A program made the translations under genes and the position numbers. A DNA stretch of 64,000 bases from Pelagicoccus sp. SDUM812005 (GTDB taxonomy: Bacteria > Verrucomicrobiota > Verrucomicrobiia > Opitutales > Opitutaceae), in the NCBI RefSeq assembly GCF_031127875.1, contig NZ_JARXIA010000014.1, forward strand, positions 1 through 64,000, written 5' to 3'. Position 1 is the stretch's first letter. Every line of letters starts with the position of its first letter. Of the stretch, positions 12,418-42,203 are shown in pieces. The notes under the pieces were generated by a model, which was not told the origin of the DNA, searched no databases, and was given only the letters and a program-made list of their open reading frames with translations.

Positions 12418-12568
12418 AGGCGAGGAAGGGCGTCAGTGAGAGGAAAGCGTCTTTGGAAGTAGGGAAGAATTGCGTGATAATTCGTAGAGCGCAAGCCTGC
12501 CCCGCGCTTATGCTAGATGTGGCTGTTGGGGGTTGAATTTCAGTGCGAAGGCTCTATGCCGTGGCTTC

Positions 12569-13213
12569 ATGCCTTTGAACGTAAGAATTTTTCCGGCCGG
12601 CTCGATTCAGACCAATGCGTTTCTGATCACGGATACGGACCGAGGGGAAGCCGTATTGATCGACGCCCCGAACGACGTCTCGAAAGACGTGGATCCTGCC
12701 TTGGCGGAGGACTCCTGCGAGCTGAAGGCCGTTTTGATTACCCACGGCCACTACGACCACATCGGGGACGTGGCGACCTTTGCGGACCGAGGGGTACCGC
12801 TCTACGGGCACAAGGCGGACCAGATGATGTTCGAAAGTCCGGAATGCATGCGGGCCTACACCTATCCGCCTGACCTCGAGTTGCGCGGCTTCCAGATCGA
12901 CCACTGGGTGGAGGACGGGACGAAGCTTTCCCTCCTCGGGCTGCAATGCGAAGTGAGGCACGTGCCGGGACATTGTCCGGGCAACGTCCTGTTCTACTTT
13001 CCCGAGGCGAAGGCCGCTTTCGTGGGAGATGCCCTGTTCGCGGGCGGGATTGGCCGGACGGATCTGCCGGGAGGGAGTTTCCAGCAATTGGAACGATCGA
13101 TCCGGGAGCGGATCTATACTTTGCCGCAGGATACGACGGTTTTGCCCGGGCATGGTCCGAACACGACGGTGGGCGAGGAGATCTCGTACAATCCCTATGT
13201 ATCCGGCGAATAG
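12569..13213 (+). CDS. MBL-fold metallohydrolase (glyoxalase II-like)
   Basis: This 214-residue protein has the metallo-beta-lactamase metal motif THGHYDHIGD, then VPGHCPGNV, GDALFAGGIGRTDLPGG and LPGHGPNTTVGEE. The last pattern is typical of YcbL/glyoxalase-II-like hydrolases that act on thioesters such as S-lactoylglutathione. All metal ligands appear present. The ATG at 12569 begins the conserved core (MPLNVRIFPAGSIQTNAFL); upstream in-frame codons are unlikely to be used. It is transcribed away from the sensor kinase and precedes the riboflavin gene by 62 bp. Confidence 0.9.
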   Translation: MPLNVRIFPAGSIQTNAFLITDTDRGEAVLIDAPNDVSKDVDPALAEDSCELKAVLITHGHYDHIGDVATFADRGVPLYGHKADQMMFESPECMRAYTYPPDLELRGFQIDHWVEDGTKLSLLGLQCEVRHVPGHCPGNVLFYFPEAKAAFVGDALFAGGIGRTDLPGGSFQQLERSIRERIYTLPQDTTVLPGHGPNTTVGEEISYNPYVSGE

Positions 13214-13275: not shown

Positions 13276-14436
13276 ATGACCCAGTCCGAAAAAGAGACTT
13301 TCATGAAAGTTGCCCTCGACGAAGCCCGCAAGGGCTGGGGCCGCACCCATCCGCAGTTGATGATTGGAGCCGCCTTGGTCGAGCAGGGCCAGGTGGTGGC
13401 GACCTCCTACGTGGAGCAGCCCAGCTCCACGGCTCCCGAGATTCGCTTGTTCGAGGCGCTGGGCCGCAAGCCCAAGGAGGGGGCGAGCCTCTTTCTCACC
13501 ATGGAGCCCGGGCCCAGCTCGAATCGTTTGGAGTCGGGAGTGCGAGCCATCAAGGAGTCCGGCGTGCGCTACGTGGTGATCGGCGCCAGCGATCCGGTGC
13601 CGGACCACGCCAACAAGGGGGCCGACGCCCTCAAGGAAGCGGGAGTGAAGGTCGAACGTCGCATCCTGATCGAGGACTGCGAGGACTTGAATTTGATATC
13701 CAACTTCTGGGTACAGCACCGCATCCCCATTTTTGCCGCGAAGTCGGCGACGACCTTGGACGGGAAGATTGCCTGCCGCACCGGCGAGTCCAAGTGGATC
13801 ACCGGCGAACAGGCCCGCCAAAACGTGATGAAGTGGCGTCGCCTCTTCCCGTCGATCGCGGTTGGGGCCGGAACCTTGGTGGAGGACGATCCGCGCCTGA
13901 CCAGTCGCATCGAAGGGGAGCCGGAGTGGTGCGGCATGCGCTTCGTGTTCGACGGATTGCTGCGCACTGCCATGGAGCGCTACCTGCCGACCATCTACAC
14001 GGACGACTTTCGCGACAACACGATCGTGGTGACGACGGATGCGGCGGGCACTGGATACATTCGCCGTCTGGAAACGGAAGGCGTGAACGTGTGGGTGCTG
14101 CCGGCCGAAAACATGAAGGTTCCTTTCTCCGTCTTCCGCAAGCGCTGCGCCGACGTCGGCATTACCGGCGTCTATTTCGAGGGCGGCAGCCGGCTCGTGA
14201 GCGAGCTGCTGCATATGCGCGAGCTCAACTACCATTTCAACTACCGGGCGCCGATCATGATGGGGGACGACAAGGCCAAGTCCGTCTATCGCGGCTTGCG
14301 CACCGAGCGGCTCGCCCAAGCGATTCGCTTGGAAAAGGTGCGGCATGAGGTTTTCGGCGACGACCAGCTCATGCGAGGATTCGTAAACTACCCAGCGCGT
14401 TTGGACGTCGATGAAACTGTATTTAGCAACGGGTAA
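13276..14436 (+). CDS. ribD: RibD-like protein: intact reductase, degenerate deaminase domain
   Basis: RibD normally deaminates and then reduces a pyrimidine intermediate of riboflavin synthesis. The C-terminal reductase half is well kept (KSATTLDGKIACRTGESKWI, then AVGAGTLVEDDPRLTSR). The N-terminal deaminase half keeps its fold and length (GRTHPQLMIGAALVEQGQVV) but not its zinc site: the usual HAE reads APE, and the usual EPCxxxGRTPPC region reads EPGPSSNRLESG, with no cysteine. The 386-residue protein therefore probably only reduces, and the deamination must come from elsewhere or be unnecessary. The gene overlaps rdgB by 26 bases, so the two are cotranscribed. Identity of the family is clear; the loss of one activity is inferred. 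Confidence 0.88.
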   Translation: MTQSEKETFMKVALDEARKGWGRTHPQLMIGAALVEQGQVVATSYVEQPSSTAPEIRLFEALGRKPKEGASLFLTMEPGPSSNRLESGVRAIKESGVRYVVIGASDPVPDHANKGADALKEAGVKVERRILIEDCEDLNLISNFWVQHRIPIFAAKSATTLDGKIACRTGESKWITGEQARQNVMKWRRLFPSIAVGAGTLVEDDPRLTSRIEGEPEWCGMRFVFDGLLRTAMERYLPTIYTDDFRDNTIVVTTDAAGTGYIRRLETEGVNVWVLPAENMKVPFSVFRKRCADVGITGVYFEGGSRLVSELLHMRELNYHFNYRAPIMMGDDKAKSVYRGLRTERLAQAIRLEKVRHEVFGDDQLMRGFVNYPARLDVDETVFSNG

Positions 14437-15016
14437 CGCCCACAAGATCGAGGAGCTGCGGGCCATGCTGGCGGCGGCTGGTTTAGCGATGGAAGTTCAC
14501 GGTCCGGCGGCCTTGGGAGGCATGCCGGAGGTGGTAGAGGATCAGGATAGCTTTTCCGGAAATGCCCTCAAGAAGGCTAGGGCCTTGGCGACCCGCCTCC
14601 CTTCGGGGGCCTGCGCCTTGGCCGACGATAGCGGGCTTTGCGTGGACGCACTGGACGGCGCTCCTGGGGTGTATTCCGCTCGCTACGCCGGCGAAGGCGC
14701 GAGCGATGCCGAAAACACGGACAAGTTGCTGAAGTCGCTGGAGGCTCTGGGGGCAGTTGATCGCTCCGCTGGATTCCAGTGTCACCTCGCCCTCGTCTCG
14801 GCGACGGGGGAGGAGCAGATTTTTGCGGGGGAATGCCGTGGCCGAATCATTGAAGCGAAGCAGGGCGAAGGCGGTTTCGGCTACGATCCGGTGTTCGTCC
14901 CGGACGGCTTCTCGAAGACCTTCGCCGAATTGAGCCGTTCGGAGAAGGCTGGATTGAGCCATCGCGGAAAAGCGATGGAGCAGCTCGTAGCGTGGCTACG
15001 GTCCAAGGGGGCGTAG
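14411..15016 (+). CDS. rdgB: XTP/dITP diphosphatase (RdgB/HAM1)
   Basis: This enzyme removes ITP, dITP and XTP from the nucleotide pool. The 201-residue protein has the family features in order: YLATGNAHKIEELRAML at the N-terminus, the ADDSGLCVDALDGAPGVYSARYAG block, GEGGFGYDPVFVPDG and SHRGKAMEQL. Its ATG lies inside the end of ribD, so translation is coupled to that gene. Confidence 0.97.
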   Translation: MKLYLATGNAHKIEELRAMLAAAGLAMEVHGPAALGGMPEVVEDQDSFSGNALKKARALATRLPSGACALADDSGLCVDALDGAPGVYSARYAGEGASDAENTDKLLKSLEALGAVDRSAGFQCHLALVSATGEEQIFAGECRGRIIEAKQGEGGFGYDPVFVPDGFSKTFAELSRSEKAGLSHRGKAMEQLVAWLRSKGA

Positions 15017-42129: not shown

Positions 42130-42203
42130 AGCCTCGTGGTGTAATGGTAGCACTAAGGTTTCTGGTTCCTTCTGTCGGGGTTCGAGTCCCTGCGAGGCTG
42201 CCA
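42130..42203 (+). tRNA. tRNA-Gln (CTG anticodon), integration site
   Basis: The 74-nt sequence folds as a cloverleaf: acceptor stem agcctcg with cgaggct, D arm with TAATGGTA, anticodon loop TTCTGGT giving CTG, a T arm with GTTCGAGT, discriminator G and an encoded CCA. The anticodon stem has one T-T mismatch at its loop end. A terminator follows at once. The tyrosine integrase gene begins 158 bp downstream in the same direction, so the 3' end of this tRNA is the probable attachment site. Confidence 0.93.

Follow-up and report, generated by a model that had tools for sequence, protein, structure and literature searches.

A full-length RibD with a lost deaminase zinc site and a separate RibD-type deaminase in Pelagicoccus and its relatives

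The window analysed here, a stretch of 64,000 nucleotides from Pelagicoccus sp. SDUM812005, contains an open reading frame that is recognized as full-length RibD by the NCBIfam equivalog model TIGR00326. The original prediction for this DNA described a RibD whose deaminase zinc site is completely lost and whose reductase half is normal, so that riboflavin synthesis would need another deaminase or the protein would have a new role, perhaps tied to rdgB. The locus thus raises the question of what such a protein does, which enzyme carries out the deamination, and why the altered half is still there. The features of the locus are listed below, where the references are 54 intact full-length RibDs and the group comprises 18 full-length RibDs of four genera, the window protein included.

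12533..13213, + strand: metallo-hydrolase-like gene (named by eye), the upstream ancestral neighbour; a similar gene adjoins dead and many intact ribD genes
13276..14436, + strand: RibD of 386 aa, deaminase half putatively dead, reductase half intact (TIGR00326, 181.9 bits, above the cut-off of 156.35)
13276..13716, + strand: putative pseudo-deaminase half, about aa 1-147 (zinc-deaminase model PF00383, 24.4 bits, just below the cut-off of 25; RibD deaminase halves align with the predicted model at Z 15.9-17.8)
13354..13356, + strand: Q27, replacing the substrate-site Asn (N in 54/54 references; Q in 18/18 of the group)
13432..13434, + strand: A53, replacing the zinc ligand His (H in 54/54 references; in the group A 9, G 4, S 3, C 2)
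13438..13440, + strand: E55, the catalytic Glu, kept (E in 18/18 of the group)
13510..13512, + strand: G79, replacing a zinc ligand Cys (C in 54/54 references; G in 18/18 of the group)
13537..13539, + strand: G88, replacing a zinc ligand Cys (C in 54/54 references; in the group G 17, A 1)
13723..14433, + strand: reductase half, aa 150-386, with K156, S172, W174, T176, D204 and E302 (Pfam RibD_C, PF01872, 82.1 bits; all six residues in 18/18 of the group)
14411..15016, + strand: rdgB-like gene (named by eye and in the original prediction), downstream and overlapping ribD by 26 bases; a similar gene adjoins dead and many intact ribD genes

The lost zinc site and its distribution

The canonical motifs TxPNPxVG, HAE and EPCxxxGRTxxC read THPQLMIG, APE and EPGPSSNRLESG in the window RibD, with A53, G79 and G88 at the positions of the zinc ligands His, Cys and Cys, all three of which are gone. 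Residue roles in this site follow the description of A. baumannii RibD in PMC3668577. The five site positions are occupied by N, H, E, C and C in 54/54 reference full-length RibDs, which are a subset of the RibDs matched in the family and order searches and, being mostly best-scoring loci, are biased towards intact proteins. In alignments to solved RibDs, the zinc motifs are free of gaps, with small gaps only between the motifs. A complete site in some other alignment would have counted against the original prediction; on this basis none was seen, and the claim of complete loss is borne out. The reductase active-site residues, taken from the list in PMC3668577 (Lys156, Ser172, Trp174, Thr176, Asp204 and the Glu of EGG), are all present in 18/18 of the group, and the reductase half looks as normal as had been claimed. 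TIGR00326 is a trusted model for the bifunctional deaminase/reductase, and its acceptance of a protein with a lost deaminase site is a warning for annotation.

Three PDB entries, 8dq9, 8dqb and 8dqc, titled as 3-dehydroquinate dehydratase I of Klebsiella oxytoca, match RibD in both sequence and fold; either their title or the crystallised protein seems to be misassigned.

A search of the family with the window protein matched 194/200 genomes at 1e-15. The 18 RibDs of the four genera are 73-100% identical to the window RibD, and the next relatives are 55-56% identical. RibD was read in 18/20 genomes of these genera, leaving out G256, which has a fragment, and G286, in which none was found besides a stand-alone deaminase. 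The dead site is present in 18/18 of the full-length proteins read. The alignment across relatives that had been suggested with the original prediction thus finds the loss common to all orthologues from four genera, which argues against a frame accident; an assembly or frame error was ruled out as its cause, since the 18 orthologues agree. A dead RibD is also present in five named records, which may overlap with the 18 genomes: Pelagicoccus mobilis, Pelagicoccus sp. SDUM812002, a Pelagicoccus MAG, Verrucomicrobiae bacterium DG1235 and an Opitutales MAG.

The dead ribD is flanked by the ancestral neighbours on both sides in 18/18 genomes, and the order hydrolase-ribD-rdgB is common to the dead-site group and to relatives with an intact RibD, with the ribD/rdgB overlap seen in several genomes. 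The dead RibD thus sits at the ancestral locus, with the same neighbours as its intact relatives, and is the native gene. Because this gene order also surrounds intact RibDs, it does not account for the dead site; the suggested link to rdgB was rejected as an explanation, and a new role coupled to that gene is not supported. No FMN riboswitch was detected in an Rfam scan of the ribD, ribB/ribH and stand-alone deaminase loci (the window, L125 and L087). The only match at the Rfam gathering score in these three sequences was a tRNA at 42130-42200 (+) of the window.

A stand-alone deaminase and the riboflavin pathway

The assembly to which the window belongs (6.65 Mb, 118 contigs, 99.5% complete) was searched with the RibD model, and the window RibD was the sole match above its cut-off. 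The search also returned a locus on another contig (C63:204295-204699) at 142.8 bits over model positions 1-133, a 44-bit match on C31, taken to be TadA, and two weak hits scoring 15.6 and 11.1 bits. A PF00383 search of the assembly returned the C31 and C63 genes only. The C63 gene (G000:C63:204265-204720) encodes a 152-aa single-domain RibD-type protein without a reductase half, in which TSPNPRVG, HAE and EPCSTQGRTGAC form a complete zinc site. Its nearest solved relatives are RibDs, with 115 bits to E. coli RibD versus 59 bits to the best TadA. The gene is unlinked to the window ribD and has sufE and yidD on either side and a dcd-like gene farther out (neighbours named by eye). The search for a second ribD or stand-alone deaminase, proposed with the original prediction, thus succeeded, and the further deaminase that had been thought necessary has a good candidate, whose activity is presumed from its complete zinc site.

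The stand-alone gene is present in 19/20 genomes of the four genera; it was undetected only in G299, which is 88% complete. The zinc site is complete in 22/22 stand-alone proteins read, comprising these 19 and those of G010, G024 and G124. In a scan of the order, 103/130 genomes matched the RibD model at 1e-10, and a stand-alone RibD-type deaminase scoring >100 bits was found in 4/130: the genome of the window (G000), G010, G024 and G124. The first two carry a dead full-length RibD, and G024 and G124 each carry an intact full-length RibD together with the stand-alone gene. A scan of the phylum with a profile of the stand-alone deaminase matched 371/383 genomes at 1e-30, where matches by place are best matches only and two-match counts come from the genome table. 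Two matches were present in six genomes, namely the five sampled members of the group (G000, G137, G168, G197 and G220) and G059.

The window protein is very probably a riboflavin pyrimidine reductase with a pseudo-deaminase half, in an organism where the stand-alone enzyme deaminates, the stand-alone gene having been gained or duplicated before the native site decayed. In the proposed mechanism, the window RibD would catalyse the pyrimidine reductase step of riboflavin synthesis; its N-terminal half would keep the deaminase fold and, since the zinc ligands are lost, would not deaminate. Deamination would be carried out by the separate 152-aa protein, supplying the reductase substrate. Gain or duplication of the stand-alone gene would have come first, so that the native RibD no longer needed its own deaminase site; along the stem leading to the Pelagicoccus group this N-terminal site would then have decayed, with the reductase kept. 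Support for the reductase, or the binding of a partner or ligand, may be why the dead half has been retained. In E. coli RibD, mutation of the zinc ligands is described as leaving the reductase active (Magalhaes 2008, cited in PMC3668577), and the account in PMC3668577 states that no crosstalk between the RibD domains is known.

The remainder of the pathway was also surveyed. Genes for ribB, ribH and ribE are present in the genome. The RibA-like half of its RibBA (L125:2958-4040, G000:C29) is without the zinc cysteines, and judged by this motif the GTP cyclohydrolase II half is dead. The only other PF00925 match in the genome scored 17 bits, below the cut-off, so that a GTP cyclohydrolase II with zinc cysteines was not found; GCH III likewise gave no match in this genome, in a search that 3/14 control genomes passed at the cut-off. 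With neither a zinc-bearing RibA nor GCH III, the first riboflavin step here is unexplained by the families searched. PF00925 was matched in 73/95 Opitutales genomes. Among 31 loci inspected, the cysteine motif was present in four (G059, G003, G026 and G056); 25/31, including that of the window's genome, match the RibB-fused half of that genome and are without the motif, and 2/31 do not match this half. The gap at the first step may thus be common to many relatives.

The lack of a detected zinc-bearing GTP cyclohydrolase II or GCH III would also fit a protein that has left riboflavin synthesis and become a reductase for another substrate. Such a departure is very improbable, because the window protein is the only match above the RibD cut-off in its genome, its six checked reductase residues are invariant across the group, the stand-alone deaminase accompanies it in 19/20 genomes, and ribB, ribH and ribE are all present. 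The cysteine-less RibA half, moreover, is also found in relatives with an intact RibD.

Decay of the site and selection on the dead half

In a tree of the reductase half, the 18 dead RibDs form one group with support 100 among intact family members. In separate trees of the two halves, the group stem measures 1.21 (deaminase half) and 0.27 (reductase half) changes per column; as read from these trees, the long stem is a burst of change in the half that lost its site. Horizontal replacement of ribD was rejected, given the ancestral neighbours in 18/18 genomes and the reductase-half tree. The median ratio of dN in the deaminase half to dN in the reductase half is 2.04 within the group (153 pairs) versus 0.93 for 64 close intact pairs, and 0.63 over every intact pair that gave a finite value, out of 1431 computed. 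Values of dN/dS are about 0.12 for the dead half and 0.06 for the reductase, as medians of the 9/153 group pairs with a usable dS and a reductase dS <1.5, dS being near saturation. In the three closest pairs (L050, L051 and L052), the dead half is not faster than the reductase. The raised dN ratio together with the low dN/dS indicates that the dead half is relaxed but not free, and by these estimates it is under purifying selection despite its fast evolution on the stem.

The origin of the stand-alone gene was examined in the deaminase tree, which has few columns and places all stand-alone proteins on one side of a branch with support 88-89. A tree joining them with the native RibD of the group was not rejected (p-AU 0.26, seven long or decayed rows dropped). 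The combination of an intact RibD with a stand-alone gene in G024 and G124 looks like a redundant intermediate. The stand-alone gene of G024 adjoins a yidD-like gene, in the opposite order to that of the Pelagicoccus group.

Decayed RibDs were also seen elsewhere. G010, from another Opitutales family, has a dead full-length RibD on C24 and a stand-alone deaminase on C10, with different neighbours. Its dead RibD falls apart from the Pelagicoccus group in the reductase-half tree, and a tree that joins the two was not rejected (p-AU 0.326). In genus g5, the RibDs of G059, G226 and G314 have lost both Cys positions and the Glu, with the His lost in one of the three; their reductase residues are lost too, W174 and D204 in 3/3 and E302 in 2/3. 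These proteins (G059:C8, G226:C99 and G314:C52) are still encoded by full-length ORFs with the usual neighbours, and G178 and G275 of the same genus have an intact RibD. Joining the decayed g5 RibDs with the Pelagicoccus group was rejected (p-AU 0.005), and by this test the decay in g5 is separate from the Pelagicoccus-group loss. Besides its decayed RibD, G059 carries an intact one, which adjoins a zinc-bearing RibA. In G314, one piece, at the end of a contig, is an intact deaminase, and a further piece lacks the TxPNP motif. A genome search of G226 found no second RibD-type deaminase.

Retention of the dead half and comparison with known systems

The structure of the window RibD was predicted from six closely related rows, and the model is confident only at about residues 30-130, being poor at 22-28 and having pLDDT <50 from residue 130 on, in the reductase half. 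In a comparison that re-scored the best 1000 matches from Foldseek, twelve RibD-like rows matched the model at Z 15.9-17.8, mostly over 127-144 residues. By prediction, the dead half thus keeps the deaminase fold.

Conservation within the dead half was compared in 132 windows of eight residues. Residues 24-31 are the most conserved and 77-84 the second, and seven residues (E55, P78, G79, S81, N83, R84 and D106) do not vary among 14 representatives. According to PMC3668577, the phosphate site proposed for RibD includes R84 and the Asn position. Taken together, the four former active-site stretches have a mean entropy of 0.79 versus 0.73 for the remainder of the half. The HAE region (44-57) is loosened, with an entropy of 1.47, and the full 13-residue stretch 77-89 ranks 18 of 127. 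Intact relatives likewise have their lowest entropy among the four stretches at 24-31 (0.11), so that packing may explain the conservation of this stretch here. The uneven conservation of the pocket is compatible with a role in binding or docking, and fold packing appears at least as good an explanation.

Two readings of the retained half were weighed against these data. Structural ballast, without which the reductase would fold or assemble poorly, has about an even chance of being right: it is consistent with the higher dN of the dead half, with the loosened HAE stretch and with the dead halves kept in plants too (PMC9678776). The half is, however, full length in all 18 orthologues of four genera, and archaea and fungi have reductases that are monofunctional (PMC3668577), so that a deaminase half is not needed for the reductase fold in general. 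A working pseudoenzyme is possible but rather unlikely; it would either partner the stand-alone deaminase or tune the reductase through a phosphorylated pathway compound bound in its former pocket. The two parts of the former pocket that are the top two conserved windows, the seven invariant residues and the low dN/dS of the half point towards it, as does the X half of Shewanella RibBX, which is reported to regulate the RibB half (PMC10012899); the combined active-site stretches are nevertheless no more conserved than the remainder, the HAE region is loosened, 24-31 is conserved likewise where the site is intact and packing may be the cause, and 77-89 as a whole ranks only 18th. More specifically, and only tentatively, the half could be a regulatory or docking domain, either with a phosphorylated pathway compound still bound by its former substrate pocket or in a mixed complex with the stand-alone deaminase through which the intermediate reaches the reductase; we consider this doubtful. 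If it were true, the dead RibA half would make this a riboflavin synthesis with two pseudoenzyme domains and a first enzyme outside the searched families. A cryo-EM entry, PDB 9no2, is titled as a RibD-enolase complex; a RibD partner from outside the pathway could bear on the question of kept dead halves.

The preferred reading, a reductase with a pseudo-deaminase half beside a separate deaminase, can be compared with several known systems. Like the bifunctional RibD/RibG of E. coli and B. subtilis, the window RibD has two domains at full length, carries the reductase residues and scores above the TIGR00326 cut-off; unlike them, it has none of the three zinc ligands. Monofunctional reductases of archaea and fungi are not known to carry a deaminase-like half. 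Together with the monofunctional deaminases of these organisms, they likewise place the two reactions on two proteins (PMC3668577).

The plant enzymes share more features. According to PMC9678776, plant PyrR is a RibD homologue that serves as the reductase with a deaminase-like half devoid of catalytic residues, and the deaminase resides on a second protein, PyrD, whose reductase-like half is devoid of catalytic residues. In Pelagicoccus, a putatively dead deaminase half and an apparently live reductase half likewise lie in one chain, and the same organism has a second gene for a putative deaminase whose zinc site is complete. The Pelagicoccus proteins are most likely a bacterial counterpart of the PyrR and PyrD pair, as judged from sequence and from the published description of the plant proteins. 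They differ in that PyrD keeps a dead reductase half, whereas the Pelagicoccus deaminase is a 152-aa single domain. Because the dead group lies among intact family members in the reductase-half tree, an origin separate from that of plant PyrR is expected. No report of a RibD split of this kind in bacteria was found in the open-access library searched, a limited basis.

By analogy, the closest parallel within bacteria is RibBX, also a bifunctional enzyme of the riboflavin pathway that retains one dead zinc domain, in that case RibB with a dead RibA half (PMC10012899). It differs in being another enzyme and in the reported regulatory effect of its X half. The hypothesis put forward for RibBX in that paper is that a second gene first relieved the original of selection, a route that G024 and G124 would illustrate here. 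The end state of the split has a plant precedent, and the present genomes would offer a staged bacterial case of a two-in-one enzyme coming apart, from an intact RibD, through an intact RibD with a spare deaminase, to a RibD whose original site is dead.
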